Source: a virus
Length of the DNA stretch: 55,893 bases
Direction: 5' to 3' (one strand)
Virus record (IMG/VR): IMGVR_UViG_3300022562_000664
Location: 1 to 55,893 of that record
Under the pieces are notes generated by a model, which saw only the letters and a list, made by a program, of their open reading frames with translations, was not told the origin of the DNA and ran no database searches. Position 1 is the stretch's first letter, and every line of letters begins with the position of its first letter. Made by a program: the position numbers and the translations under genes. Shown here piece after piece: positions 6,298 to 52,209 of this stretch.

Positions 6298-7124
6298 GCT
6301 TCACTGACAACCAAAATTTTGAGACACAGCCATCAGGCCAAGCAGATTGGGACACTGGCCTAAACAGCAATTTCTCTATAATGGATCGAGGTTGGCATAT
6401 AAAGCTAACCACAGCAGAGACAATTTCCACAGGAGATATTCTTGCTGTAACGTCTGGAGGATTAGCTTGGAGGTATAACAGCACAAGTTTAGATTTGCGT
6501 GATCCTTTAGCAATATCATATAAATCGGTGGCGAGTGGTCAGCAAGATTTGTTTATTTCTAGAGGAATTATCAATTCATATGATACATGGTCAGGGCACA
6601 TTACGCCTGGGCTACCAGTCTTTGTTTCTGCTGCAACACCAGGCTTCTTAGTTAGTTCATACTCAGCTTCATGGCCCCCGGTTGGATTGGCCCTGGCAAA
6701 CAATGCTGTCGCCTTCAACCCCGGTCAATTCAGCCCTATGCCAATTAAGACTACTCAAGTTGTTTCGTTAGCAGTAATAGTTGGATCGGTTCACGACTTT
6801 ACTTTTGAAGTGGGTCACCGTGGAATCGCAACTGAACTGATTATCCAATCTGATAGCTCTTCAGCTCACGCTTTTTATCTTTGGTCTGGAAGCATCAAAG
6901 CTAACACTGAATTGCTTTATGAAACACTTACCACTTCTGTAGATGGTGGGGCATCAGATTTTGATATTTCATCCATTTATTACCGGGATGTGTCTCCATT
7001 TGGGATTTTGAATACAGATGTTGCTTCTCCTGGTTTAATCTTTGGACGCTTAGAATGCCAAAGTTCTAATGCTGTTGGTTCCTCAGACCTGAGCATTTCT
7101 ATCACGGTCGAGAGGTTCCGTTAA
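6294..7124 (+). CDS. Putative tail fibre or tip accessory protein
   Basis: A 276-residue protein between the tip protein and the large fibre, coupled to both (ATGA, then TAATG). It begins with a segment common in fibre-like proteins (FETQPSGQADWDTGLN), followed by a beta-rich region of short hydrophobic strands and Gly/Ser/Thr turns. There is no enzymatic motif or signal peptide. The role as a receptor-binding or fibre-attachment protein rests on context and composition; I do not recognise a named family. Confidence 0.6.
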   Translation: MSFTDNQNFETQPSGQADWDTGLNSNFSIMDRGWHIKLTTAETISTGDILAVTSGGLAWRYNSTSLDLRDPLAISYKSVASGQQDLFISRGIINSYDTWSGHITPGLPVFVSAATPGFLVSSYSASWPPVGLALANNAVAFNPGQFSPMPIKTTQVVSLAVIVGSVHDFTFEVGHRGIATELIIQSDSSSAHAFYLWSGSIKANTELLYETLTTSVDGGASDFDISSIYYRDVSPFGILNTDVASPGLIFGRLECQSSNAVGSSDLSISITVERFR

Positions 7125-10100
7125 TGGGGCAAAGAAACTTTCCAGTTGATGTTAGGCGTTTGGTGCCTAGTGATAACATTCGTCAGTTTCCAAATGAAGG
7201 CGCAGGCACTGGCCTTCCTCCACCTATTCCACCTGAGCTATTTGAAATTGTAACTGATAGCCTTCGAACAACAACAGGCGTTCAGCAATTTACTGCCCCA
7301 AATTTTGGTACACCGGCAGCTGCTATCTTTTTAGTAACAGCAGGGACAACAATTAATACAGGGTTCCAAAATTCTATAAATGGCGGCGTCGGGATGACTG
7401 ATGGCGTTAGCCAAGTTGTTATGTGCCGTCAGGTTTCACCAATTGAAAGTATTGTTGACGCATATAATCGCGCAGCAAATGATGAAGTCATCCAATTGTT
7501 AGATGGAACAGGCGCTGTTGTATTAGAAGCAAACTTTAGTCAATGGGTCACAGATGGAGTAGAAATTAACGTTACAGTCACCGATGCTACAGCATATCTT
7601 GTGACAGTTATTTTAATTGATTCCAGCGTTAATGCGAGCCTCGTTCTTGATGAGGCAATGCCAAATAGTACAACTGAAACATTTTCCCCAGGCTTTGAGT
7701 CAGATGCAATAATTTGCATGGCAACTAATTCAGGTGGAGTTTGGGATACTGCTGCCGCTCACGCTACTTTTAATATGGGATTTGTTTCTTGGGATGGTGT
7801 GTATTTAAGACAGTGTGGAACATATCACGCTGATCTTGATGCTGTAGCATCAGTAGATATGCGTATGGCCGTTTCCTATAATGACATATTAAATAATACA
7901 AGTAGCAAAAATACTATAAGCAATATAACAAGCACTAGTTTTGATGTTACCACTATTTCTAATTTCAGCACATGGTCTGGCGCATATTTATGTCTTAAAT
8001 TTACTGGTGGAGAAAGTGCATGGGCAGGGATTGTTGATGCGCCTATAGCTACTGGTGATAAGACTTGGGCAGATTTAGATAATACCCCAGAATTTATAAT
8101 GGCAATATTTGGCGGTGCTGATGTTCTTAACACAAATGAAACTTCCAATGATGGAAGTGATATGTCTATTGGTTTTGCTAATTCATTTGGCGATGAAGCA
8201 GCAGCCAGTTGGTATGATCAAGATGGTAGCGGGAATACAGATTCTAGCTCTCTTATATATGATACAATTGCCAATGTTGTAGATGCTGCAGCATTTACTA
8301 AGCGATTTACTGGCAGCTTTGTTGGCATGGCTGAAAAAGGATTTACTATTAATTTCACTGATGTTGATAGTGCTGGAATAGTTAGGAAATGGCCAGTTCT
8401 TGGAATAGGGCCAAAAGTTGCTGATGTTTCAAGTGATCCATATTGGCACCAAGTTATCGCCTTAATAGGTGCTAATGGTTTTGATGGATCACCTTTATTT
8501 CCTGATGAATCAAGTTACCACTTTGTCACTTCTGTTTTTGGCTCATTAACTATTGATACAAACACACCAGTTTTTGGCACAGGAAGAGGTCAAAATGTTG
8601 CTGGTGCTGGTTTATTAGTGAACGTAGGGAGCCGGGGCAATATTGGCAGTTTAGATTTCACTTTAGAGGGCTGGTGGGAGGCCAATAGTGGAGTTGGTGG
8701 CTCTGATGGCATAGCATTCAGAGGGGCCACAGGAGAAGGGCGATATGGGATTTTCTTAGAGACTGGTGGGTTTATTTCATTTTATCATGGAACTGTTGGT
8801 CAGTTACTTTTAGTCAATGATCAAGACTATAGAGATCAGGTAGCGCGCCACATTGCTGTTTGCCGCAGCGGTGGGGTTACACAAATGTGGATAAATGGTC
8901 AGTCTAAGGCTTTAACTAGCACTTCATATTATGTCAATTCTAATGGGGGTGCTGTTCAAGTTTGTAATGACCCAAATACTTCTAATCGAAATTTTTTGGG
9001 ATATTTTGATGAATTTCGTTTTACTGTAGGCGTGGCCCGGTATAGCGGCTCTTCATTTCAAGTAAGCAGCACTGCATTCCCAAGACAAGGTTCTACTGCG
9101 CCGCTTACCCTTGGTGTTCGCGCTGCTCGTGGTTATAATAGAGGTGGATCAACTGTAGCATATCCAAATCCACCATATGGTTCTGGTGATCTTATTATCC
9201 TAGCCACTGCTTGGACAGACACAGATGGTGGTGGGTCTGTTACAAGTTATGATGGGATTGGTGGTGGGGCTTTTGGAAATGGTATTCGCCACAATAATTA
9301 CCAAAGAATAATTGGTGGATATGATGATGAATTTGATGGTGCTTGGCAAAGAACTGCTACTAGCATCACAGGCAAAGCAGGGCTACATTTATCAATTCAA
9401 GGCCCTGATCCAACAGTTAGAGTTGAAACATTCGATGTCCATTCTATTGGTACCACAAGTGTTTGGGCGAATGGCCCTCTATCATCTTCATTAAGCCCAA
9501 CAGATTGGCTATATATTGGCTACATGTTCTGCGATAGTGTGGCGGGTGTTACTCTACCAGCCTCCTTAACTCTATGTGCCTCGTTTGTTGCAGAGGATAT
9601 GACGTGCGTCGCTGGTTACGCAAAAATGTCTGTAGCCAGTTTAGATGTTGTTACATGGGGCCTACTTAGTGCTCAAGGCGGTTTTGTTGGTGGTCTAGTC
9701 GTCCCGGCAGGCGGTGGAACAATTGCCTTTAGTCCTGACCTTGATCCGCACTGGGACAAGGTTCAAATGATGATGGGCTTTAACTGGGATGTTTCTAGTA
9801 ACCAAGCAGCATTTGATGCATCTAGTGCCGGGAGGCTTTTTAGTAGTTGGAATGGTTCTGGCCCAGTTCTAGTTAATAGTCCAACCCCACCATTTGGAAA
9901 AACATGGGCACGCATCCCGAATATAAATGGCTGGATTGCTTGGGGAACAGGACATACCGGGAGCTTAACACCTCCTGGTGATTTTACCATGGATGCTATA
10001 TTCTACACTGATAGCTTAGAGGTTTTGAATACTCTTGCTTGTGTGTGGGGAGAATTTTCAACAGATCAATCTTGGCGATGGGGAGTTAATCAAACTAGTG

Positions 10101-10471
10101 GTTTGCAATTTATCGCTATAAATAGTGATGGCAACCAAGCATTTAATATCATATCAAGTTGGTTCCCAGATGTAGGATCAGTTTATCACGCTAGGGTTGA
10201 TTGCAGGTCCGGTCAGGGTAGACTATACGTTGCACCGATTGGTGGAGTTGGAAGCATGATTGCTGGTCCACAAACCAGATCGGGAACAATACGCTATCTA
10301 AGCGCAGAACAATTTACTATTGGTGGACGACCAGTAACCAACGATAGTTGGCCATTGCAAGGTAACATCAAGGAATACCGATACACTGCTAATTTTGCTA
10401 GGACTGCTGGAGGGGTATTCACACCAGTTAGCTCGATGTTCCCACGTTGGGGCTCTGGAGATTTATTGTGA
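7124..10471 (+). CDS. Large tail fibre / receptor-binding protein with LamG-like domains
   Basis: A 1115-residue beta-rich protein. Two segments look like concanavalin/LamG-type jelly rolls. The first, about residues 500-650, runs from SLDFTLEGWW through RHIAVCRSGGVTQMWINGQ to DEFRFTVGVARYSG. The second, about residues 925-1110, ends in EYRYTANFARTAGG and MFPRWGSG. The DEFR...GVARY motif recurs in fibre and surface proteins with this fold. Such domains bind glycans, so this is the best candidate for the receptor-binding protein. It is the last structural gene before the lysis genes. Confidence 0.75.
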   Translation: MGQRNFPVDVRRLVPSDNIRQFPNEGAGTGLPPPIPPELFEIVTDSLRTTTGVQQFTAPNFGTPAAAIFLVTAGTTINTGFQNSINGGVGMTDGVSQVVMCRQVSPIESIVDAYNRAANDEVIQLLDGTGAVVLEANFSQWVTDGVEINVTVTDATAYLVTVILIDSSVNASLVLDEAMPNSTTETFSPGFESDAIICMATNSGGVWDTAAAHATFNMGFVSWDGVYLRQCGTYHADLDAVASVDMRMAVSYNDILNNTSSKNTISNITSTSFDVTTISNFSTWSGAYLCLKFTGGESAWAGIVDAPIATGDKTWADLDNTPEFIMAIFGGADVLNTNETSNDGSDMSIGFANSFGDEAAASWYDQDGSGNTDSSSLIYDTIANVVDAAAFTKRFTGSFVGMAEKGFTINFTDVDSAGIVRKWPVLGIGPKVADVSSDPYWHQVIALIGANGFDGSPLFPDESSYHFVTSVFGSLTIDTNTPVFGTGRGQNVAGAGLLVNVGSRGNIGSLDFTLEGWWEANSGVGGSDGIAFRGATGEGRYGIFLETGGFISFYHGTVGQLLLVNDQDYRDQVARHIAVCRSGGVTQMWINGQSKALTSTSYYVNSNGGAVQVCNDPNTSNRNFLGYFDEFRFTVGVARYSGSSFQVSSTAFPRQGSTAPLTLGVRAARGYNRGGSTVAYPNPPYGSGDLIILATAWTDTDGGGSVTSYDGIGGGAFGNGIRHNNYQRIIGGYDDEFDGAWQRTATSITGKAGLHLSIQGPDPTVRVETFDVHSIGTTSVWANGPLSSSLSPTDWLYIGYMFCDSVAGVTLPASLTLCASFVAEDMTCVAGYAKMSVASLDVVTWGLLSAQGGFVGGLVVPAGGGTIAFSPDLDPHWDKVQMMMGFNWDVSSNQAAFDASSAGRLFSSWNGSGPVLVNSPTPPFGKTWARIPNINGWIAWGTGHTGSLTPPGDFTMDAIFYTDSLEVLNTLACVWGEFSTDQSWRWGVNQTSGLQFIAINSDGNQAFNIISSWFPDVGSVYHARVDCRSGQGRLYVAPIGGVGSMIAGPQTRSGTIRYLSAEQFTIGGRPVTNDSWPLQGNIKEYRYTANFARTAGGVFTPVSSMFPRWGSGDLL

Positions 10472-39687: not shown

Positions 39688-40047
39688 ATGCGTTTTCGCA
39701 TTTATTATGCCATCTTCGATGCTGGGGATGGCGAATATCACCGTTGGACATATGAAGGCCAAGGCTTTGATGATGCCTGTAAGGCTCCTACAGAGGGAGT
39801 TCAGGTTATTGTCCAAGAGAACCCAAACCAGCAAAAGTCTGCTATCCCTGGCTGCGATATAATCAGTCAGTTTGATTGGTATTGTTGGCGCGCCGATCAA
39901 GGTTGGATTGGCATGAATTCTGGGGGATATGAGACATATCTCCGTGAAAAGGGATTTCCAAAATATATCATCCACGGCTATAATATGCGGAATGATGCCT
40001 TCAATAAGTGCTTGACACAAGCATTGAAAGAGGGTCTTGGTGAGTGA
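39688..40047 (+). CDS. Hypothetical protein
   Basis: A 119-residue soluble protein with many aromatic residues (IYYAIFDAGDGEYHRW, FDWYCWRADQGWIG). GAGGGAG precedes the ATG, and the end overlaps the next gene by four bases (GTGA). No family is recognised. Confidence 0.6.
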   Translation: MRFRIYYAIFDAGDGEYHRWTYEGQGFDDACKAPTEGVQVIVQENPNQQKSAIPGCDIISQFDWYCWRADQGWIGMNSGGYETYLREKGFPKYIIHGYNMRNDAFNKCLTQALKEGLGE

Positions 40048-42107
40048 AGGTCTATCGTGGCCTAAATCTTGAACAGCTTCTTGAGCTTTGGCGCAAGGAG
40101 GAACTGCGCCGTAAGGCTAATCAGCCTACAATCCTTTTCCATAATGCTTTTACTCCAGCAACTCAACATTATCGTATTTATGATGATGATGCTGGGGAGG
40201 CTTCTTCAACTCCCCACAATAGTGTAGCAGAAGATACTGCTCCATCTGTTGATGTAGATGGTGGAGACGTCAATTTACAAGTCCGCCTGATGGTCGAGGA
40301 AACGGGCGGCGATAGTAACCAAGGAAACAATGAGGCTCTCACTTGGGAATGGGAATTAAATAACTCTGGTACTTGGAACCAGATCACTTCGACAACTTCG
40401 GGTGATCCGGTTGATATGAATGGAGGCAGCTCTAACCTTACTGGTGGATCGGCAACTACAGACCGCGCAACGAATGGCTTAACCAATGGCAGCGGAACCT
40501 TTGTTGCTGGCGAGCAGCAGACAGCTAACAGTGTAACCAATACAACCGCTCTGACCGCTGGAAATTACACAGAACACGTTTGCGCGATAATTGTCAGAGC
40601 AGCCCAAGTCAACAATGCTGATTTTATTAGATTCCGCATTGTTTTTGCTGGTACTGCGGTTACAAACAATGTCAACCCACAAATTACAATTGCAAAGACT
40701 GGTGGTTCATTACCAATAGATGCTATTTCAGTCAACACAATATCTGCTTCTGCTCAAACATTGGTGGATAGAGCATTGAATGCGAACAGCGTCAACCTTT
40801 CCATCTCAACATCCTTTCTTGGGCTGAATCGCGATCTGAATGCTTCAGCAAATAATGTATCTACAGCAGCCACTCAGTTGGCTGTATCTCGGGCATTAAC
40901 TGCTGCTGCAATTAATGACATAATTGGAAATGCATTTCTTGGCAACACTAAGGTTCTTAGTGCGTCAGCAATCAACACTATATTAGCCAATGGTAATACA
41001 TCAGTTACACGCGGGCTAATAGCGTCAGCAATCAATGATGTTGTTGCTAACGCAGATACAAAAGTTGCCAGAGATATTAATGCTTCTGGAGTAAACACTT
41101 CGGTCAGCAACTCTGAATTGGCTAGAGTTAGAGCCATAGTTGCTGCAGCAGTTAACGACATTGTGTCTAGTGCCACCCTTGGCTCAACCCGAGCACTAGA
41201 TGGTTCTGCTACAAATACTATTGTATCAGCTGGATTTATTGGCAAAGCTATTCAATTAGCAGCTGCAGCAATCAACAATACAATAGCCAATGCTGATCTA
41301 GGCAGCCAGCGAGCTTTGAACGCCGCAGCAGTGAACGTTGTAACGGCGGCTTCCGCGCTCGGCGTATCACGTGCCCTATCAGCCTCAGCGATTAACATAA
41401 TCTCGGCGGCGGCTGAACTTGCCGCTGGTGGTATAAATCTTGTCGATTTAGACGCATCATCAGTCAACACTATATCTGCCCTAAGTGAGTTAGCCAATCT
41501 CCGTGGCTTCAATGCCACATCAGTCAATATAGTTGTGGCCATCGGCCAACTAGCTGCCTCCCGGTCACTTTCAGCATCTTCAGTTAATGCTGTATCCGCG
41601 CTAAGTGAGTTGGCCAATCTTCGTGGTCTGTTAGCTAGTACAACCAATCTATCAATTGCTAATGGTGAATTAGATATAATCTCATTGAATTTGGTAGATA
41701 TGGATGGAGCATCGGTCGTCAATGTGACCGGGGCTGCTGCCTTGGCTGTTATGCGATCTTTGAATGCTCTTAGTGTGAATACATCTTCTGCTGCAGCATT
41801 TCTAGCCTCATTGCGCGGATTAGATGGTGATGCCTTGAATACAGTTCAAGGTCAGGCTTTCTTGGCGCTTGTTAGAGATATGGCTGCTTCTTCTGTCAAC
41901 ACTATCTCTGCAGATAGTATCTTAGGCAGAGGGATGGTTCTTAATGCTCAGGCAGCCAATGTTGTTATATCAAATGCTCAATTAGAGTTAGTGTTGCCTG
42001 AACCAGTTACAGGCGTGTCTATGTCTATTTCTGATGGCCAATTGAATACACAGGTTTTGGCAGATGGAATTTTATATAGCCAATCAGTCTCAGATTATAT
42101 ACCGTAA
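40044..42107 (+). CDS. Surface protein with about twenty 20-residue repeats
   Basis: A 687-residue protein. Residues 30-210 form a beta-rich domain (GNNEALTWEWELN, TNGLTNGSGTFVAGEQ, LTAGNYTEHV) that recurs in phage surface proteins. From about residue 230 to 655 there are some twenty tandem repeats of 20 residues with consensus LxASxVNTIxAxxxLAxxRx; two copies carry four extra residues. The regular small hydrophobic, Asn and Leu positions suggest a solenoid or fibrous shaft. Codons vary between copies. It probably forms a head fibre or another virion appendage. GTG start overlapping the previous stop. Confidence 0.75.
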   Translation: MKVYRGLNLEQLLELWRKEELRRKANQPTILFHNAFTPATQHYRIYDDDAGEASSTPHNSVAEDTAPSVDVDGGDVNLQVRLMVEETGGDSNQGNNEALTWEWELNNSGTWNQITSTTSGDPVDMNGGSSNLTGGSATTDRATNGLTNGSGTFVAGEQQTANSVTNTTALTAGNYTEHVCAIIVRAAQVNNADFIRFRIVFAGTAVTNNVNPQITIAKTGGSLPIDAISVNTISASAQTLVDRALNANSVNLSISTSFLGLNRDLNASANNVSTAATQLAVSRALTAAAINDIIGNAFLGNTKVLSASAINTILANGNTSVTRGLIASAINDVVANADTKVARDINASGVNTSVSNSELARVRAIVAAAVNDIVSSATLGSTRALDGSATNTIVSAGFIGKAIQLAAAAINNTIANADLGSQRALNAAAVNVVTAASALGVSRALSASAINIISAAAELAAGGINLVDLDASSVNTISALSELANLRGFNATSVNIVVAIGQLAASRSLSASSVNAVSALSELANLRGLLASTTNLSIANGELDIISLNLVDMDGASVVNVTGAAALAVMRSLNALSVNTSSAAAFLASLRGLDGDALNTVQGQAFLALVRDMAASSVNTISADSILGRGMVLNAQAANVVISNAQLELVLPEPVTGVSMSISDGQLNTQVLADGILYSQSVSDYIP

Positions 42108-42121
42108 AGCTGGAGGTTGGA

Positions 42122-42409
42122 ATGCCACATCAACCAAATAGATATTATCCAAATAACATCGTTAGATTTGCTACCACCATAACGGCTAGTGGCAACAACC
42201 CAATTAATCCAACACCTTTTGCTGCAGTATTTCTTGATACAGTCAGCAGCATTGATACTAATAGTATTATTAACCCTTCATGCGGGTTCTTTTATTTTGA
42301 TTTTGAGGTTGAGACACCAGGAATTTTAGGATACCGTTGGACTATGGAAGGTAGCCATAAGGCGCAATCCTTCGGGGCAGTCCAAGTGAATACAGTTCCC
42401 TGGTCATGA
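42122..42409 (+). CDS. Small putative structural protein
   Basis: A 95-residue beta-rich protein with GGAGG before the ATG. Segments VRFATTITASGNNPINPTPF and GFFYFDFEVETPGILGYRW look like an Ig-like strand pattern. It is the partner between the repeat protein and the propeller-like protein, coupled to the latter (ATGA). No family is recognised. Confidence 0.55.
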   Translation: MPHQPNRYYPNNIVRFATTITASGNNPINPTPFAAVFLDTVSSIDTNSIINPSCGFFYFDFEVETPGILGYRWTMEGSHKAQSFGAVQVNTVPWS

Positions 42410-43134
42410 AAATCCTTGTTAGTTGCTGCGACAATGGCAGTGGATTATTCATGTGTGAAGATGGAGAGTGGACCCATCTTGTAGACACTCACGCTCAATC
42501 TGTTCTTCGCACCCCACTTGGAATCATGTTGATGACAGAAGGGTGGATTTTACTTTATGATGAAGAAAGGTTGAAGAAAAAAGAATTAAGTGTCATTACA
42601 AGAACAAAGTTTGCTTTGAGAGGGCACCATGGTTCCGTATGGGATGATCAGACAGGTCTTGTGGCTACAGTCTCTTCTGACGAAAACACTATTTATTGGA
42701 CATGCCCAATCTCAGGTGAAAAGAAGCGAACACTTGAAGTCAATCGCCCAGGTTCGCATACCAATGACATTGACATTGATGGAAGCGAAATCTATGTGTC
42801 AAGTTTCCATCGCGGGATTACACGAGTAGATAGGGAAACTGGTTCTAGACAAGAGCTTTGGGTTGGAGAAGAAAAAGCACATTCCGTTAAAAAAGTCAAT
42901 GGTGAAGTCTGGTGGTGCGAATCAGATCAGCGACGAGTGAAAAGAAATGGTAAAATTGTTTCTGAGTTTCCAGGCTTTCCAAGAGGTTTGGAATGGTACA
43001 ATGGTGATTTAATTGTTGGCATTTCTCGCCATAAATATCGCGAAGAAGGACATGCTGGATTCTATTACAATGATTCATTTTACTCTGTTCCTAATGGCGT
43101 CACCAATGTTTATGATTTGTTGGTTTTAGAATGA
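42406..43134 (+). CDS. Beta-propeller-like protein
   Basis: A 242-residue protein with repeated four-strand units (WTHLVDTHAQSVLRTP, GSVWDDQTGLVATVSSDENT, SHTNDIDIDGSEIYVSSFH, HSVKKVNGEVWWCESDQRR, RGLEWYNGDLIVGIS), compatible with a five- or six-bladed propeller of SMP-30/NHL type. Asp and His pairs such as HTNDIDIDG could bind metal. It is coupled to the radical SAM gene (ATGA), so the two probably work together on one substrate. The closest known group may be TIGR03032-like proteins; I am not certain. Confidence 0.6.
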   Translation: MKILVSCCDNGSGLFMCEDGEWTHLVDTHAQSVLRTPLGIMLMTEGWILLYDEERLKKKELSVITRTKFALRGHHGSVWDDQTGLVATVSSDENTIYWTCPISGEKKRTLEVNRPGSHTNDIDIDGSEIYVSSFHRGITRVDRETGSRQELWVGEEKAHSVKKVNGEVWWCESDQRRVKRNGKIVSEFPGFPRGLEWYNGDLIVGISRHKYREEGHAGFYYNDSFYSVPNGVTNVYDLLVLE

Positions 43135-43808
43135 AGTATCCGAGACTCATCCAAGAAATCCACCAGATTGAAGTCACCACTAGGTGTAATCTGCGTTGTA
43201 GATATTGTCCCCACCCAAAGATGCAGCGGCCAAAAGAGGATATGGAATTCAAAACATTCCTCAGAGCTATGCACTGGGTTGAATATTTCTATCAGCGCGG
43301 ACTACAAAGTGAACTTTCATTTACAGGGATTGGTGAAAGCACAATGCATCCCCAGTTTAAGGAGATGTTGCTTTTCGCCAGAGACCGTTGCCCGAATATG
43401 CCAATTTTGTTCAGCACCAATGGATTGCCAACCTTTGACGAGGACTTAGCAAAGCTGTGTTCAAAGATTGGCATTCAGGTGATGGTCTCACTTCATCGCC
43501 CAGAGATGGCAGGTAAGTGCATTGAGCTTTGCAAAAAGTATGGCATATTACGATATGTCAACAATGCTTTTGCCACTAGTGCTTTCAATTGGGCAGGGCA
43601 AGTAGAAGGTTGGTTTAACTCTGCTCCATCAACTCCATGTGCTTATTTAGCTCGTGGATGGGGAGTTGTTCTTCAAGATGGTCAAATTACTACTTGCTGT
43701 CTTGATTCTGAAAATTACGGGGTAGTGGGCACAGTTTGGGATGAGCCCGGTTCACTGTCAATTGCTCCGTATAAGTTATGCGAAAATTGTCACGAACAAG
43801 TTCCATAG
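43131..43808 (+). CDS. Radical SAM enzyme with SPASM-like end
   Basis: A 225-residue enzyme. The iron-sulphur motif is C19-x3-C23-x2-C26 (CNLRCRYC), followed by a SAM-binding GIGEST and the barrel strand PILFSTNG. The C-terminal part has more Cys (TPCAYLARGWG, TTCCLDSEN, CENCHEQV), a SPASM/Twitch-like cluster used by enzymes that modify peptides or sugars. It is shorter than usual (about 300-400). Between a propeller-like protein and capsid genes, it may modify a virion protein or glycan. Coupled upstream; the next gene starts within its end. Confidence 0.8.
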   Translation: MKYPRLIQEIHQIEVTTRCNLRCRYCPHPKMQRPKEDMEFKTFLRAMHWVEYFYQRGLQSELSFTGIGESTMHPQFKEMLLFARDRCPNMPILFSTNGLPTFDEDLAKLCSKIGIQVMVSLHRPEMAGKCIELCKKYGILRYVNNAFATSAFNWAGQVEGWFNSAPSTPCAYLARGWGVVLQDGQITTCCLDSENYGVVGTVWDEPGSLSIAPYKLCENCHEQVP

Positions 43809-44130: not shown

Positions 44131-45237
44131 ATGCCCAAGCAATTATCTAGCCTAGAAATCTTTGGTGCTGGAACTCACCGGGCTCAAACCGGAGCAGTAA
44201 CTGTCACTGAGGATGACCTGGATCAAATTGTCAACGCCTTCAATTCGCTGCAGGGCACAAACATCGTAAGACCCCACCTCAAGCTTGGCCACACGGATGC
44301 CCAGAAATGGTTCGGCCAGAAAGATGGCATCCCGTCTCTAGGATGGATTACACGAGTGTGGCGTGAGGGGCGTAAGCTCCTTGCGAATGTGTCCGATGTT
44401 CCTGACATGCTGATTGATTTGATCAAATCAGGTCGCTACCATAATGTGAGCGCAGAAGTCTTTTGGGACGCACCGATTGAACACGAAGGCCAAAAGTTCT
44501 CTCGGGTGTTGAGCGCGGTAGCACTCTTAGGGGTTGAGATGCCGGCGGTCAAAGACCTGTCTGGTTTAGCAAGCGCCCTATTCCAAGCCGAGCCAATCCA
44601 TCGGTTCTCCGATGGGTCCGCAATCACAATCACCACTGAGAGAGAAACACCCATGCCTGAGCAGAATGATCCTGCTGGCCCCAAGCTTGTTTATAGCGCG
44701 GAGCAGCATGATTCTCTCGTTGAAGTGGCAGTTGCGAAGGCTGTGAAGGAAGCTGAAGCGAAATTTGCTGAGGACAAAGCCGGGCTTGAGAAGAATCTTG
44801 AGGTGGCTGAGACCAGGGCAAAGACTGCTGAGGCAGAAATCACTAAGGTCCGAGCAGAGGCCACCCAGAGAGAAGCTATCGCCCTTGTTGACAAGGCGAT
44901 TCAGGACGGCAAGCTGCTTCCAAAGCAGCGTGACTTTGCTCTCGCGGCTCTCACCGCGAATGAGACCAAGGTCAAGTTTGGAGAGAAAGGCGAAGAGAAA
45001 TCTATGCCTGAGCTCTTCAAGGCATTCCTTGAAGCGTCTGGTAGAGTCGTGGACCTGTCTGAGAGTGGTTCCGGCTCCAACAAGATCGTCAACTTCAGCA
45101 CCGCTGCTGAGGAAGTGGACTACAAGACCAAGCAGTTCCAGGCCGAGAAGTCTGAGAAAGACTACGCAAAGGCCATGGATGCTGTTTTGTCTGCGGACCC
45201 TGCCCTCAAAAAGCGGTATGCTGAGTCCCAAATCTAG
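44131..45237 (+). CDS. Mu gpI-like capsid protease/scaffold
   Basis: A 368-residue head maturation protein. Residues 1-150 resemble the Mu I protease: RPHLKLGHTDAQKWFG, GWITRVW, YHNVSAEVFW and ALLGVEMPAVK. From about residue 190 it is a long charged coiled coil (KEAEAKFAEDKAGLEKNLEV), the scaffold part. ATG 44653 at residue 175 could give a separate scaffold, as Mu Z does. No SD precedes the ATG at 44131; TATAGA (44115-44120) is close enough that transcription could begin only a few bases upstream. Confidence 0.85.
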   Translation: MPKQLSSLEIFGAGTHRAQTGAVTVTEDDLDQIVNAFNSLQGTNIVRPHLKLGHTDAQKWFGQKDGIPSLGWITRVWREGRKLLANVSDVPDMLIDLIKSGRYHNVSAEVFWDAPIEHEGQKFSRVLSAVALLGVEMPAVKDLSGLASALFQAEPIHRFSDGSAITITTERETPMPEQNDPAGPKLVYSAEQHDSLVEVAVAKAVKEAEAKFAEDKAGLEKNLEVAETRAKTAEAEITKVRAEATQREAIALVDKAIQDGKLLPKQRDFALAALTANETKVKFGEKGEEKSMPELFKAFLEASGRVVDLSESGSGSNKIVNFSTAAEEVDYKTKQFQAEKSEKDYAKAMDAVLSADPALKKRYAESQI

Positions 45238-45246
45238 GGGGCGCCA

Positions 45247-45657
45247 ATGGCATACAACAATCAACAGCGTTCTCTAGCAATGGAGGCCGCTGCTGACCTT
45301 AGCTCCCATCAATTCAAGATCGTTGAGTTGACCACAACCGCGAATAACGTTCAGCTGGCTCAGCTGAATGCTGGGTTTGGTGTTCTTCAGAACATCCCCC
45401 AGTCCGGTGAGGCAGCGACGGTTGCGGTTGATGGCGAATCCAAGGTCATCGCCGGTGCCGCTCTCACGATTGGCCAGTACGTTACGGCCAAATCGGGTGG
45501 GTGGGCCATCCCTGTTAATTCCGGTGACGCTCCGCCGCTGAAGATTATGGGTCAAGTGATGCTTGGTGCTTCCTCTGGAGGCATCGGCACCATTACCATC
45601 CGTCATATGATGGTGCCCAACGTCATCAGTGGCGACATTGTCGCCGCATTGCCGTAA
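45247..45657 (+). CDS. Head decoration protein (DUF2190-like)
   Basis: A 136-residue beta-rich protein with the FGVLQNIPQSGEAATVAVDG and SKVIAGAALTIGQYVT segments of DUF2190-type capsid decoration proteins, which sit on the outer surface and stabilise the shell. It lies directly upstream of the major capsid gene, as usual for this family. Its start follows the protease stop by nine bases. Confidence 0.8.
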   Translation: MAYNNQQRSLAMEAAADLSSHQFKIVELTTTANNVQLAQLNAGFGVLQNIPQSGEAATVAVDGESKVIAGAALTIGQYVTAKSGGWAIPVNSGDAPPLKIMGQVMLGASSGGIGTITIRHMMVPNVISGDIVAALP

Positions 45658-45672
45658 GGAGGACTGTGAGCC

Positions 45673-46638
45673 ATGCCAGCCCCTTCGACTGGACGTGACC
45701 TTCACATCGATGTCCCCCTATCCAATGTGGTGGTGGGTCGTCGCCCTGAAGGGTTCATCGCAGACCAGCTGCTTCCGGTGACGAATGTCCCGAATCAGAC
45801 TGGTATTTACTACAAGTACAATCATCTTGAGTGGTTCCGAGACGTTCCTGAGGGCACGCTTCGGGCACCGATGACTGAAGCCAAGAAAGTTGCGATCACT
45901 GTCACTTCGGACACCTTCTATGCTCCCAACTATGCGCTGGGTGCAGAGTGGCCCGTTGAAGACGAGGTCAACGCTGATGCGGTTCTTCAGTGGTCCCGGT
46001 CTCAGGCACTCCATGTGACTGACCGGCTCATGATGGACTATGAGAAGCGTGTTGCTGACCTGTGTGTTGCTTCTGCGAATGTTGCCACTATCTTCTTGGC
46101 TTCTTCGGGATGGAACTCTCTGGCTCGCACCGCGTATACTGATTTGCTCACCTGGCGGGATGCATTCAAGGACATCACTGGTGTGATGCCGAATACCTTG
46201 ATCATCCCGCGTAAAGTCATGAGCAAACTCCGCGCTAACGATCAGATGCGCGACCTGTTGTATGGAGACCGCGGTGGTCTCGTCACTGCGCAGCAGGTTG
46301 GTAGTCTGATCGACATCCCAAATGTTCTGGTTCCAATGGCTCAGGTCAACACTGCTGTTGAGGCTGATCCGCAAGGTGGGACCTTTGCTGATGTTTGGGA
46401 TGGCAATGGCAACCTTTGGATGGCCCATATCAACAACATGTCAGGGATGTTCACGGACACGTGGCTTAATGCCTTCCGCTGGACTTCTCCGTTGCTCCAG
46501 GGCCTCCCGATGGCTGTCCAGCGGTATCCGTTTGACCCCAAGAAGAAGTCATATTCAATTGAGGTCGGGTACTACCAGGCAGAAAAGGTCATTTCGAGTG
46601 ACTTGGCCATCAGGGTGTCGTCTCTGACGGCCACCTGA
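45673..46638 (+). CDS. Major capsid protein
   Basis: A 321-residue HK97-fold capsid protein by position and length. Segments include NVVVGRRPEGFIADQLLPV, YAPNYALGAEWPVEDE, PNTLIIPRKVMSKLRANDQM, WNSLARTAYTDLLTWRDAF and AEKVISSDLAIRVSSLTA. It belongs to the group found with gpI-like proteases. A strong SD (AAGGAGGA) precedes the ATG. Codons are GC-richer than in neighbouring genes, as expected for high expression. Confidence 0.92.
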   Translation: MPAPSTGRDLHIDVPLSNVVVGRRPEGFIADQLLPVTNVPNQTGIYYKYNHLEWFRDVPEGTLRAPMTEAKKVAITVTSDTFYAPNYALGAEWPVEDEVNADAVLQWSRSQALHVTDRLMMDYEKRVADLCVASANVATIFLASSGWNSLARTAYTDLLTWRDAFKDITGVMPNTLIIPRKVMSKLRANDQMRDLLYGDRGGLVTAQQVGSLIDIPNVLVPMAQVNTAVEADPQGGTFADVWDGNGNLWMAHINNMSGMFTDTWLNAFRWTSPLLQGLPMAVQRYPFDPKKKSYSIEVGYYQAEKVISSDLAIRVSSLTAT

Positions 46639-46766: not shown

Positions 46767-49664
46767 ATGGAAGTTGTTATCTTGGCGCAGGGCCTACCTT
46801 TTGGGCCCACCACCATTGAGCACCGTTCTCTTGGTGGATCAGAAACTGCTGCTTTAATGATGGCGCGTGAACTTCGGAAGCGCGGCCATCTTGTAAGCAT
46901 TTTCTGTAATCTCCCTCCAGTTGGATACCCTGACCATATTGAAAATGGTGCCCAAGATGATTTGGGCGTTCGTTGGGTATCTGGAGATCAATACCAAGGG
47001 TTCATCTCTAATACAGAAGTTGATCTGCTAGTTGTTAGCAGGAACCCTGATTTATTTCAGTGTGTCCATCAAGCTAAGAAAGCAGTTTTGTGGTGCCATG
47101 ATTTAGCAACCTATCAAGGTTTGCTACCCCGGCTTATGCAATCTGCTTGGAATTTTGATGAGATTTGGTGCGTATCTGAATATCACCGCCAACAAATTCA
47201 TAAGGTCACTGGCTACCCTCTTAAGAACATTAGGGCAACAAGAAATGGAATTGTAAAGTTTGATTCCATCCTTCAGCTTCCTAGAGAGGAAAAGACACTA
47301 TTATATTCAGCACGCCCTGAGCGTGGATTAGAAAATTTAGTCAAAGAAGGCGGTATTATGGAGCGCCTTCCAGAATATCATCTTTATGTTACCATGTACG
47401 AAAACTATCCAGACCACATGATGGACTATTATCGTTATTTGTGGTCAAGGTGTGAAGCTCTTGACAATGTAACGCTTCTTGGACCTAAGACGCAACTTGA
47501 ATTGCGCCAACTTATGCGTAAATGTTGGGCTTATTGCTATCCCACAGCTTTTGAGGAAGTCTCTTGTATCATTGCGCGAGAGTGTATTGAACAGAAACTT
47601 CCTTTTATTGGAACAACTATCGGTGCACTTCCAGAAACATTAAATGGCTGTGGGCACCTATTTGAGTGCACCAAAGAAGAAGTGGGAACAGAAAAGTTTT
47701 GTGAAGAATTTGCTGAATTTGTTAAAGGGGCCGGGCGTGAAATTATGTCAATTGAAGAAGCCTGTAGCCTAAGAAATGATTTATATTGGGATGATGTAGC
47801 AGAACAATGGGAAGAATGGTCAGTTCCTGAAAAGCCTACTGACTATTCTGCTATTCACTCTTTGATTCAAGATAGTGATATCATAGCTGCAAAAGCAGTC
47901 CTAGATACTATTCCAGAAGATAAGCGCACCCCTGGTATCAAATGGCTTGAAAATGAACTCAAGACAAAATATGAGTTTGTTTTTGGGAACAAGAAAATGG
48001 AGGATCATTACAAAGATATTTACGACTTTGAAGAATCAAAGCAAGTACCTGAGCGGCAATCAATGAAAACACTCAGAGGGCATGCCAGATATAACTGTAT
48101 TGCCCAACTTGCACAGAATGTTCTTCCTGGAAGCACAGTCATCGAATATGGTTGTGCTGAAGGACCAATCATTCTTCAGCTAGCACGAGACTTCCCTGAT
48201 CGCCATTTTATTGGTATTGACTTTGTAGAGGCAAATATTGATCTCTGCAAAAAGTACGCAAAAGAACATGACATCAATAATGTTAGCTTCTATACAGGAA
48301 GTGTCGATGATTGGCCAGCCGAAGTGGAAGAGGTTGATGCAGCAATCATCGCTGAAGTTTTAGAACACACAATTAAGCCATGGGAGATCATCAGTAAGCT
48401 AGAGAGCCACGTCAAAATTGGTGGCAGGATGATTCTAACCGTCCCGCAAGGCCCATGGGAGTGGCAAGGCTTGAAGGGCCCTCAATGGCCCTGGAGGGCT
48501 CATATTTGGCACATCAATAAATGGATGCTGCGCAAGATGTTCGAGAACAAAGAAGAATGCATCTTGAATGCGCTCCAAGAAGGATACCACTACGATGGCC
48601 GAGTTTGTGGTCATTTGGTGATGGGTTATAAGGCAGATGGTGAGCCAGCAGTAGAAATTGATCCAATAGAAAAGGCCCGGTTGTCTAGGTATCGTCAGAG
48701 TATGGCAGCCTGCATGATTGCCATGAATGATGATGCAACTATTATCCGTGCGCTGGATTCAATTGGCAACTTTATTGAGCAATTGCAAATTGCTCTAGGT
48801 CCGTCCACTGACCACACCAGGGAAAGAATTGAAGAGTGGGCAAGCGAACATCCATGGGTAGAAACTAGAATCATTGATGTTCCTAAAATTGAAGCCAAAA
48901 AGTTTGGCTTTGATGATGCCAGAAATGAATCCATCAAAAATATTGAGTCAGACTGGATTCTCTGGATAGATTGTGATGAATATTTATCTGGGGACAAGAT
49001 TAGAGTTTTCACAAGGAACCACTGCTTTGATAGCTTGGCTATTCAGCAGCATCACTTTACTTGTGAGCCTGCTGGTGCTCCAGCCCAAATTGATAAGCCT
49101 GCCCGGTTGTTCCGAAACCGCATAGGTTTTGAATTCTTTGGCAAGGTCCATGAACATGCAGAGCTAGGCTTCAATGGTGGGCCGGGGTTTGTCCTACTTG
49201 TTCCTGGCGTTGATATTGGCCACACTGGTTATGTCAATGATGCTACGCGGATGAGTAGATTTGGTCGCAATTTTCCATTGCTTGAATGGGACCAAGAAGT
49301 TTATCCTGAGCGCAAACTTGGTAGGTTCCTATGGCTTAGGGACATCATCCATCGAATGCGACTTATTAATCAGCAAGGCAATGTAAATGAAGCTAGACGC
49401 CTAGCTGAAGAGGCTATAAACTTCTTCAAAGAATTTGGCGAATCCTTTGAAGCAATTGGTGGTGGAAGTAATGCCACCCTGGCCTATGTTTCTGAGGCCA
49501 TGCAATTTTTGGGCAGAGGTTGGCCCATGATTGTTGCTGTCCAACTAGAGGAACAAACAGCACAATATCAAGGGGTATTTGAGTCAGAGGAAGATGCTTT
49601 CAAGATTGCGAAGCGGGCACTGAAAGAGCAAATTGAAAAGCGCAAATCAGGATATTGGCAATGA
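46767..49664 (+). CDS. Three-domain glycosyltransferase-methyltransferase-glycosyltransferase
   Basis: A 965-residue protein. Residues 1-330 resemble a GT-B (GT4-like) enzyme: SLGGSETAALMMARELRKRG, WCVSEYHRQQ, LLYSARPERGLENL and CYPTAFEEVSCIIARECIE. Residues 440-600 form a class I SAM methyltransferase: VIEYGCAEGPIILQLA, FIGIDFVEANI and EVLEHTIKPWE. Residues 645-880 resemble GT2: ACMIAMNDDATIIRALDSI, DDARNESIKNIESDW and ILWIDCDEYL, with the DxD metal site. ATG 46767 is chosen for its AAAGGGG. Between capsid and neck genes, it most likely builds a methylated glycan on the virion, though acting on host surface sugars is possible. Confidence 0.88.
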   Translation: MEVVILAQGLPFGPTTIEHRSLGGSETAALMMARELRKRGHLVSIFCNLPPVGYPDHIENGAQDDLGVRWVSGDQYQGFISNTEVDLLVVSRNPDLFQCVHQAKKAVLWCHDLATYQGLLPRLMQSAWNFDEIWCVSEYHRQQIHKVTGYPLKNIRATRNGIVKFDSILQLPREEKTLLYSARPERGLENLVKEGGIMERLPEYHLYVTMYENYPDHMMDYYRYLWSRCEALDNVTLLGPKTQLELRQLMRKCWAYCYPTAFEEVSCIIARECIEQKLPFIGTTIGALPETLNGCGHLFECTKEEVGTEKFCEEFAEFVKGAGREIMSIEEACSLRNDLYWDDVAEQWEEWSVPEKPTDYSAIHSLIQDSDIIAAKAVLDTIPEDKRTPGIKWLENELKTKYEFVFGNKKMEDHYKDIYDFEESKQVPERQSMKTLRGHARYNCIAQLAQNVLPGSTVIEYGCAEGPIILQLARDFPDRHFIGIDFVEANIDLCKKYAKEHDINNVSFYTGSVDDWPAEVEEVDAAIIAEVLEHTIKPWEIISKLESHVKIGGRMILTVPQGPWEWQGLKGPQWPWRAHIWHINKWMLRKMFENKEECILNALQEGYHYDGRVCGHLVMGYKADGEPAVEIDPIEKARLSRYRQSMAACMIAMNDDATIIRALDSIGNFIEQLQIALGPSTDHTRERIEEWASEHPWVETRIIDVPKIEAKKFGFDDARNESIKNIESDWILWIDCDEYLSGDKIRVFTRNHCFDSLAIQQHHFTCEPAGAPAQIDKPARLFRNRIGFEFFGKVHEHAELGFNGGPGFVLLVPGVDIGHTGYVNDATRMSRFGRNFPLLEWDQEVYPERKLGRFLWLRDIIHRMRLINQQGNVNEARRLAEEAINFFKEFGESFEAIGGGSNATLAYVSEAMQFLGRGWPMIVAVQLEEQTAQYQGVFESEEDAFKIAKRALKEQIEKRKSGYWQ

Positions 49665-50161
49665 GCTATGCTACCATTGACGATGTCTTCAAACGCTATA
49701 AGCCCATTCGCACCCTTGTTGGGTCTGAAGATATCAGCGTCAATTCGGTAGAAGTCTCTTCCATATTCATCACTGATGCGGAAAGTTTTGTCGATGCATA
49801 CATATCGCGTCGATACGCCGTACCACTGAATCCAGTCCCATCATTGATTCGCCAAGTAACTTCTGACTTGGCCATCTTTAATATGATGGTTGAGAAATTA
49901 CCAGATACACCTGATTTCTTTCAGCCCAGATATGATCGGGCAATTAAGACTCTTGAAATGATCCGTGATGGGGAAATGGATCTTAGCAGCCAGACAGTTA
50001 TAACTTCTGGTGACCAAGAGGCTTGGTCAAGTACAATGGATTACCACCCTGTGTTCTCACCAGTCCTTAATCCATTGGATCAGACTGTTGACAAAGATCA
50101 AGTTGATGCCGACAAGTCTGATAGATCAGGAGACATTGGTGCTCCTGATCCGAATTGTTAA
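49661..50161 (+). CDS. Head completion protein (DUF1320, Mu gp36-like)
   Basis: A 166-residue protein with the DUF1320 features SYATIDDVFKRY, a helix AESFVDAYISRRYAVPL, SLIRQVTSDLAIFNMM and RYDRAIKTLEMIRDGEM. Members bind the portal as adaptor. ATG 49661 overlaps the previous stop and has AGGA upstream. Confidence 0.88.
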   Translation: MSYATIDDVFKRYKPIRTLVGSEDISVNSVEVSSIFITDAESFVDAYISRRYAVPLNPVPSLIRQVTSDLAIFNMMVEKLPDTPDFFQPRYDRAIKTLEMIRDGEMDLSSQTVITSGDQEAWSSTMDYHPVFSPVLNPLDQTVDKDQVDADKSDRSGDIGAPDPNC

Positions 50162-50676
50162 TGGCTGTTAGCACAATACATATTCAAGACCGGAATCTCA
50201 GGCGCGCAATGCGCGCCATGGAAGCTGGCCTGCGTAACCCTGCCCCGGTATATGGTCGCGCCGCTAGGCACATGCGAGATTACGTTCGCAATACTATAAC
50301 GCTACAAGGTCGCGCTAACCCTTATCCGCGCCTCTCGCAGTGGACTAGAGATAGGACGGGCCGAAGAAAGGCCCTGATCACCCTGCGACCTAGGATTAAG
50401 GCCCGTTGGGATAGGACGCAGGGTGAAGTTTACTTTGATCCTATTAGTGCACAATGGAACATAACTCAGCATCACACAGGATTCACTTCACCGGCAGTTG
50501 TTAACAAAAGAATGGCAGTGCCACTTAAATCTGGTGGTGTTAGAATTTTTTGGAGTAGAAAGCCCAGTAAGATTCCAGCAAGAAAAGTTTGGCCATCTAG
50601 GCAGGAGCTTGAGCGTGAAGTTGTGCCTTTCTTTTCTAGTTGGGTTGATAGGATGGCTAGAAGTAGATGGCGTTAG
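50161..50676 (+). CDS. Virion morphogenesis protein (Mu gpG-like)
   Basis: A 171-residue basic protein similar to the Mu gpG/phage_tail_S group: LRRAMRAMEAGLRNPAPVYG, a helix RHMRDYVRNTITLQG, then a PYPRLSQWTRDRTGRRKALI segment and IPARKVWP near the end. It probably acts in tail completion or stopper assembly. It starts one base into the preceding stop (TAATG); the next gene starts ten bases before its stop. Confidence 0.8.
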   Translation: MAVSTIHIQDRNLRRAMRAMEAGLRNPAPVYGRAARHMRDYVRNTITLQGRANPYPRLSQWTRDRTGRRKALITLRPRIKARWDRTQGEVYFDPISAQWNITQHHTGFTSPAVVNKRMAVPLKSGGVRIFWSRKPSKIPARKVWPSRQELEREVVPFFSSWVDRMARSRWR

Positions 50677-51141: not shown

Positions 51142-52209
51142 ATGGCCTCCGGTTCTGGTGGGCAAATTGCCCTAACCCGCTCTGATTCACTCTACCTGTC
51201 GGTCCAAAGTGTCGATACTTGGACCAATTTCGTTAGTGAATCTCTAGAGCACACTCTCAATGAGCTTGAAGAAGGAAGTATCACTGGCAACAAAGATGCG
51301 CCACCTTCTCATAAGGGTATCGACTTTGGCGCTGGTGATGTTCTTCTTGAGCCTGATCCTAACGCTATTGGCCATTGGATGCGTGGCGTCTTTGGTCAAT
51401 CTAGTGGTACAGTTCTTTGTGAAGCAGGATCGCTTGGAGCAAACTCATCCGCACTAGGTGCTGGCCGGCCTGTTCTTCGACATTCATTCCTTCCAATCCA
51501 GGCTGCAGTGGACAACAGAAATTTCCTGCCGCCTTACACTATCATGGTGTATAAGGACGTGGGGAGTGCATTCTACTTCCAAGGATGTCAAATCCACGGA
51601 ATTGAATTCCAGGCAACTGCTGGTCAGTTAGTTGGTGCAAATATCAACGTAATGGCTCGGAAAGTGGAACGTTTTGAGCGAACCACTGCCATTCAAAACC
51701 TGACCAAGGTATCTGGAAGCAAGCCTTGGGTCTGGGACATGGCCTCTGTTGAGATCAGTTCCGGCCAGCAAGGATTTGCCAACCTTCTTGTTGACACAAA
51801 TTTTGAGGCTATCAATATCAACCTCAATGTGCCACTAGAAGGCGTGGTGTTGCTTGATGGCAACAAGAACTATGCTGAATACCAAGTCAATGAATTCCGG
51901 CGAATCAATACCAATGGCACTGTGTCCTTCCGAGACCAGACCGCATATGATTCGTTTACCGCATATGAGAATCGCTCTTTGCGGATGACTTGGCAAAACG
52001 TTGCCTCCAATCAGCTGCTTGGTAATCCAAATTCAGCTTTCTATCCGACACTCCAGTTGGATATTCCCCAGTTCAAATTCTTGAGCTGGTCCACTCCGAT
52101 TGGTGGGCCAAACCGGCTCCAGACATCCTTTACTGGGAAGGCTGAACGCGATCCAACTAGCCTGTATCTCTGTGAGGCATTCCTAACGAATGTGACTAGC
52201 GTTTACTAG
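51142..52209 (+). CDS. Tail tube protein
   Basis: A 355-residue beta-rich protein upstream of the tail chaperone, the place of the major tail protein. Segments include SLEHTLNELEEGSITGNKDA, KGIDFGAGDVLLEPDP, GIEFQATAGQLVGANINVMA and LRMTWQNVASNQLLGN. This length and pattern match the phage_tail_tube-like proteins found with DUF1834 and tape measure genes. ATG 51142, 10 bases after the previous stop. Confidence 0.8.
   Translation: MASGSGGQIALTRSDSLYLSVQSVDTWTNFVSESLEHTLNELEEGSITGNKDAPPSHKGIDFGAGDVLLEPDPNAIGHWMRGVFGQSSGTVLCEAGSLGANSSALGAGRPVLRHSFLPIQAAVDNRNFLPPYTIMVYKDVGSAFYFQGCQIHGIEFQATAGQLVGANINVMARKVERFERTTAIQNLTKVSGSKPWVWDMASVEISSGQQGFANLLVDTNFEAININLNVPLEGVVLLDGNKNYAEYQVNEFRRINTNGTVSFRDQTAYDSFTAYENRSLRMTWQNVASNQLLGNPNSAFYPTLQLDIPQFKFLSWSTPIGGPNRLQTSFTGKAERDPTSLYLCEAFLTNVTSVY

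Follow-up and report, generated by a model that had tools for sequence, protein, structure and literature searches.

To our knowledge, glycosylation of phage virions has been documented in only a few mycobacteriophages, in which the gene sets involved vary between phages. The precedent comes from Che8 (gp108-110), Corndog (gp38) and Myrna (PMC12363180), and enzymes of the Che8 type are reported to glycosylate the capsid and the tail tube (Freeman et al. 2023, cited through PMC12363180 and PMC12619734). In Geobacillus stearothermophilus, the S-layer glycan enzyme WsaE combines two glycosyltransferase (GT) domains and one methyltransferase (MT) in a single polypeptide that synthesises a methylated glycan and also caps it (PMC2943079), which shows that one chain can carry two glycosyltransferases plus a capping methyltransferase. 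Concerning transfer to proteins and peptides, GmaR attaches GlcNAc to flagellin (PMC9638930), and SunS and ThuS act on peptides, the latter forming both O- and S-links (PMC12457901).

The window analysed in this work is one viral record of 55,893 bases, in which a reading frame running from the ATG at 46767 to the stop codon at 49664 encodes a GT4 domain, a class I methyltransferase and a GT2 domain within a single chain of 965 amino acids. An AAAGGGG stretch precedes the ATG, and this start is supported by homologues that begin at the same methionine. The local gene order is head maturation protease, decoration-like protein, major capsid protein (MCP), fusion, Mu gp36-type adaptor, neck, tail tube and tape measure (Table 1), with the adaptor gene beginning before the fusion gene has ended. 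The first-pass annotation had described three domains with intact motifs in one chain (EYGCAEG as SAM motif and a DxD within WIDCDEYL), lying between the major capsid and neck genes, and all of this was borne out by the reading frame, the Pfam matches, the conservation of the motifs across the family and the neighbours on either side, the MCP upstream and the adaptor downstream. Further upstream, in the interval between portal and protease, a protein of 687 amino acids (40044-42107) has no Pfam or PHROG match.

Table 1. Features of the fusion gene and its surroundings in the window (residues are those of the 965-residue protein).
Feature	Position	Strand	Evidence
Radical SAM gene, C-terminal cysteines putatively SPASM/twitch-like, facultative partner	43131..43808	+	PF04055 E 1e-11, alignment A6
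Head maturation protease	44131..45237	+	phrog_976 E 7e-40
Decoration/cement- or scaffold-like protein, possible acceptor	45247..45657	+	PF09956 E 3e-4, phrog_673
Major capsid protein, upstream neighbour of the fusion	45673..46638	+	phrog_1005 E 3e-42, co-occurrence
GT4-MT-GT2 fusion gene	46767..49664	+	ORF, shared start Met, Pfam, 89 non-redundant fusions
GT4 domain, GT-B fold, residues 1-345	46767..47801	+	Pfam PF13439, AF2 + Foldseek/VIA, conservation
Helical linker, residues 346-440	47802..48086	+	AF2 and conservation
Class I SAM methyltransferase domain, residues 441-600	48087..48566	+	Pfam PF13847, PDB profile, VIA
SAM-binding motif EYGCAEG, residues 460-466	48144..48164	+	G462 86/89, G466 88/89
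GT2 (GT-A) domain, GmaR/SunS/ThuS type, residues 646-865	48702..49361	+	PDB profile, VIA, AF2
DxD motif WIDCDEYL, residues 733-740	48963..48986	+	W733, D735, D737, E738 each 89/89
C-terminal helices + beta hairpin, residues 866-965	49362..49661	+	AF2
Mu gp36-type head-tail adaptor	49655..50161	+	PF07030 E 3e-20
Neck	50155-50676
Tail tube	51142-52209
Tape measure	from 52905

Matches to Pfam models cover each of the three domains: Glyco_transf_4 (PF13439) at residues 23-162 (E 7e-9), Methyltransf_31/25/11 (PF13847/13649/08241, all above cut-off) at residues 447-592 (best E 3e-17, for PF13847) and Glycos_transf_2 at residues 649-754 (E 8e-7). The first domain belongs to the retaining GT4 glycosyltransferases by its GT-B fold and its EX7E motif (E264/E272), and it also carries GGSE (23-26), HD (111-112) and ARPERG (182-187). 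The central one is a class I SAM methyltransferase, with a Rossmann domain and the glycine-rich SAM motif, and it matches 3mgg, WbdD and others in profile comparisons with the PDB, and METTL6 by VIA. In the third, the DxD corresponds to D735/D737. Structural modelling of the domains, one of the checks suggested with the first-pass annotation, gave a pLDDT of 83 and a pTM of 0.80 for the whole 965-residue protein (AF2) and recovered both expected glycosyltransferase folds, the first part resembling the GT-B enzymes MshA, BshA and PimA (AF2 with Foldseek/VIA) and the last part SunS and ThuS (AF2 with Foldseek), with ThuS as the top VIA match (Z 18.9 over 268 residues). A separate model of residues 601-965, built from 86 sequences, reached a pLDDT of 92.7. 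A scan of the fusion protein for strongly hydrophobic segments found none.

The full-length relatives found first came only from uncultured viral contigs, at 44-57% identity, and searches with single domains enlarged the set; the module is also present on MAG contigs that carry capsid genes, as retrieved by a scan of genome contigs. Clustering of the full fusions at 95% left 89 non-redundant proteins with pairwise identities of 22-84% (median 33%), all with the same domain order, GT4-MT-GT2, which rules out a chance or mis-assembled fusion. The helical linker and the C-terminal tail are the least conserved parts, and the nearly invariant positions are GGSE, HD and E272 in the GT4 domain (E272 in 89/89 and E264 in 85/89), G466, E533 and H534 in the methyltransferase, and R719, N720, W733, D735, D737, E738, H795, E796, H819, R834 and N835 in the GT2 domain. 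This bears on the idea that the protein serves chiefly in assembly or as part of the virion, with its enzymatic functions secondary or no longer present; its obligate place in a morphogenesis operon could speak for this. We consider the idea very unlikely, given that all three domains retain their catalytic residues at such low median identity and that, among the nine closest relatives, third codon positions are much more divergent than first and second ones. No full-length match was found among 50,697 deposited phage records, and a literature search of partial coverage returned no paper describing a GT4-MT-GT2 fusion. Phage virion glycosylation is a known kind of modification; as far as we have searched, the novelty lies in the enzyme described here and in its constant association with one lineage of capsids.

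Compared with the described systems, the fusion resembles Che8 gp108-110 in that both combine phage-encoded glycosyltransferases with a methyltransferase domain. Che8 gp108 (locus L245, 26172-27347) is annotated only as a glycosyltransferase, and by Pfam it contains GT2 plus a TylF/Methyltransf_24 methyltransferase. However, the methyltransferase type differs, gp110 is GT25-like, the Che8 genes are located outside the capsid operon, at the far end of the genome of a temperate phage, and none of gp108-110 matched the GT4, MT or GT2 profiles of the fusion at E values up to 10, so homology was not found. WsaE is alike by description, with two glycosyltransferases and one methyltransferase per chain, although its methyltransferase is N-terminal and that of the fusion central, and its substrate is a lipid-linked chain. 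The GT2-TPR-GT4 protein of the podovirus ctKR88 (MW202524, UOF78238) does match the GT4 (1e-36) and GT2 (5e-17) profiles of the fusion, and its gene lies two genes after that phage's own MCP, so that such a position recurs in another group of phages, albeit with the reverse domain order, no methyltransferase and an unrelated MCP context. In that phage (L243, MW202524.1, 3147-7307) two more annotated glycosyltransferase genes accompany the GT2-TPR-GT4 fusion shortly after its different MCP.

The association with the capsid was assessed on contigs collected by the MCP profile alone, and not via the fusion. Two narrow MCP alignments served as queries, since a broader one (A5) proved too divergent for searching; the seeds were derived from fusion-bearing loci, so that universality is shown within this capsid lineage only. 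Among the 87 loci obtained, 65 have a complete fusion downstream of the MCP, in 17 the fusion starts and the contig then ends, and five contigs are too short to tell, with not a single locus seen to lack the gene. Thirty-nine of these loci were new with respect to the earlier set, and the fusion is present in 34 of them, the other five being too short. All 16 long records hold the fusion, 15 as one uninterrupted match; in one record (G020) the match is split across both ends, which fits circular permutation of the genome, and in another (G014) it is cut by the record end. Distances between the fusions track those between the MCPs (r 0.88, 65 loci) and likewise those of the tail tube (0.89), the gp36 adaptor (0.83), the protease (0.80) and the decoration protein (0.76), while 1000 permutations gave at most 0.20, and the median identity is similar for fusion and MCP (33% vs. 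35%). The fusion is inherited vertically with the MCP, diverging at an equal pace. The slot is empty in five cultured phages with remote MCPs, about 25% identical (RDJL6, KPP23, Waltz, CRP-6, and ValentiniPuff). Taken with the co-occurrence, this indicates that the gene constantly accompanies a single lineage of capsids.

The GT2 domain provides the other line of evidence. Compared by profile with the PDB, its best matches are GmaR (E 7e-33), SunS (7.6e-24) and ThuS (2.6e-22), followed at a long distance by TagF (1.7e-9), so that the top three distinct solved relatives are all protein or peptide glycosyltransferases. By this kinship, in both sequence and fold closer than to other GT2 enzymes, the domain belongs to the GmaR/SunS/ThuS group of protein glycosyltransferases, and transfer to a protein side chain is predicted. 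The likeness to GmaR, whose acceptor flagellin is a self-assembling filament protein, is restricted to this domain, as GmaR lacks GT4 and MT and instead carries TPR and anti-repressor domains; the fusion has only about 100 residues after GT2 and does not contain the C-terminal MogR anti-repressor domain of about 290 amino acids. With SunS and ThuS it shares the GT2 fold with C-terminal helices, yet these enzymes modify short precursor peptides, and the score against the SunS equivalog TIGR04195 was 35.9 bits for a threshold of 350 bits, which makes the protein related to SunS without being one. Since glycans are the substrates of other GT2 enzymes, membership of the family does not fix the acceptor.

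Considering these data together, we regard the fusion as probably a soluble trifunctional virion glycosyltransferase that is produced alongside the capsid proteins and works while the particle is being assembled, with a probability of roughly 0.6. Since it accompanies the capsid gene wherever this could be checked, it probably adds a methylated sugar to the virus particle as a standard step. Alternatively, the enzyme could modify a surface polysaccharide or lipid-linked glycan of the host during infection, for receptor masking or superinfection exclusion, and be merely co-transcribed with the late genes. GT4 and GT2 domains are frequent in the synthesis of envelope glycans, the methyltransferase resembles chain-capping enzymes of the WbdD type, and WsaE, with three matching activities, makes an exported glycan (PMC2943079), but the strict linkage to the MCP and the action of the closest GT2 relatives on protein render this unlikely. 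Lysogenic conversion in particular is weakened as an explanation, as an integrase (PF00589) is absent from 15 of the 16 long records and a resolvase from all 16.

Phage glycosyltransferases often target modified DNA (Pyle et al. 2024, cited in PMC12619734), so hypermodification of the phage's own bases with sugars, as by T4-type and other viral DNA glycosyltransferases, was also weighed. The protein glycosyltransferase kinship of GT2 and the late structural position of the gene argue against it, and the thymidylate synthase/hydroxymethylase family (PF00303) is missing from 15 of the 16 long records, this one included, so that the base hydroxymethylase that accompanies phage DNA glycosyltransferases was not found. 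DNA glucosylation was accordingly set aside as the leading idea, and appears highly improbable.

Another alternative is that, in place of the capsid, the enzyme glycosylates a protein of the tail or one involved in adhesion (tail tube, fibre or lectin-like), and would thereby tune adsorption. Tube distances follow those of the fusion as closely as MCP distances do; in three loci in which no MCP was detected (L019, L051, and L057) the gp36 adaptor and tube still follow the fusion; and proteins with a Concanavalin A-like lectin domain are encoded right after it in two others (L115, 3825-4712; L118, 8871-9737). Nevertheless, the MCP is the nearest partner by position and co-occurrence, and the large ConA-like fibre candidate of the window (7124-10471) is far from the fusion gene, and we judge a tail acceptor to be quite unlikely. 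Some points also count against the main reading. The methylation could target another substrate, the fusion of L153-L157 has SbcCD genes as neighbours and is not part of a recognised capsid operon, and on a contig from a Poribacteria MAG (L078, 2150-7113) it lies near an MCP of another family (phrog_1328), which suggests that the enzyme may work with different capsids.

Genes in the vicinity of the fusion vary more. The first-pass annotation had linked nearby radical SAM and propeller genes to the same decoration pathway, and only the former could be confirmed, as a facultative partner that accompanies 22 of the 89 non-redundant fusions. These genes mostly encode 222-287 amino acids, with a CNLxCxYC core and a C-terminal part containing C170, C189, C217 and C220, cysteines that appear to be SPASM/twitch-like. 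They are directly adjacent to the fusion in four loci (L056, L136, L152, and L162), often occur as a pair, and are retained as neighbours in L153-L157 in spite of the location outside a capsid operon (adjoining the fusion beside SbcCD in L153, 4752-8967, and likewise in L154, L155 and L157). Such a partner may alter the sugar or the acceptor. For the supposed propeller (42406-43134) the only hit was DUF4915 at E 0.009, which falls short of that model's cut-off, and the fetched loci contained no homologue, so this identity was dropped. Extra GT4+GT2 proteins of about 690 amino acids adjoin the fusion in two loci (L170, 2122-7125; L049, 938-3007), suggesting longer glycans in some phages. A glycosyl hydrolase-like protein is encoded immediately upstream of the fusion in L064 (2873-4051). 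Between the fusion and gp36, three loci encode proteins of 579-867 amino acids without Pfam match (L116, 8968-11568; L125, 10348-12210; L126, 10332-12068), which are possible acceptors or head fibres.

Returning to the virion glycosyltransferase, its GT2 domain would first move a sugar from a host nucleotide-sugar donor to a serine or threonine of a virion protein, in the manner of GmaR, the GT4 domain would then attach a further sugar, and the methyltransferase would O-methylate the glycan as a cap. We infer a virion protein as acceptor, the O-linkage, this order of steps and methylation on the sugar; GT2 is placed first because of its protein-glycosyltransferase relatives. The role in virion decoration proposed at the outset is partly supported, and is the reading best backed by the linkage to the capsid, the GT2 kinship, the kept active sites and the near absence of lysogeny and base-modification genes. 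As to the division of labour, it is more likely that GT2 makes the attachment to protein and GT4 extends than that GT4 builds and the rest caps. An O-linkage is favoured over an S-linkage, as 28 of 66 loci have an MCP free of cysteine and the MCP, decoration, gp36 and tube proteins showed no conserved one. Candidate acceptors are the capsid, decoration, tail tube and adaptor proteins, and a scan of the virion proteins for conserved serine or threonine made no single one stand out.

More broadly, and only tentatively, a whole lineage of uncultured tailed phages might have made glycosylation and methylation an obligatory, co-inherited part of particle maturation, for which a single fusion protein, its gene placed between those for capsid and neck, would be responsible, joined in some of these phages by a radical SAM partner. 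If this is true, the glycan would be a structural or protective component of the particle and not an optional extra. Throughout a deep lineage of uncultured phages the capsid gene is regularly accompanied by a single three-domain enzyme, which suggests that glycosylation of virus particles may be commoner in the environment than is known.
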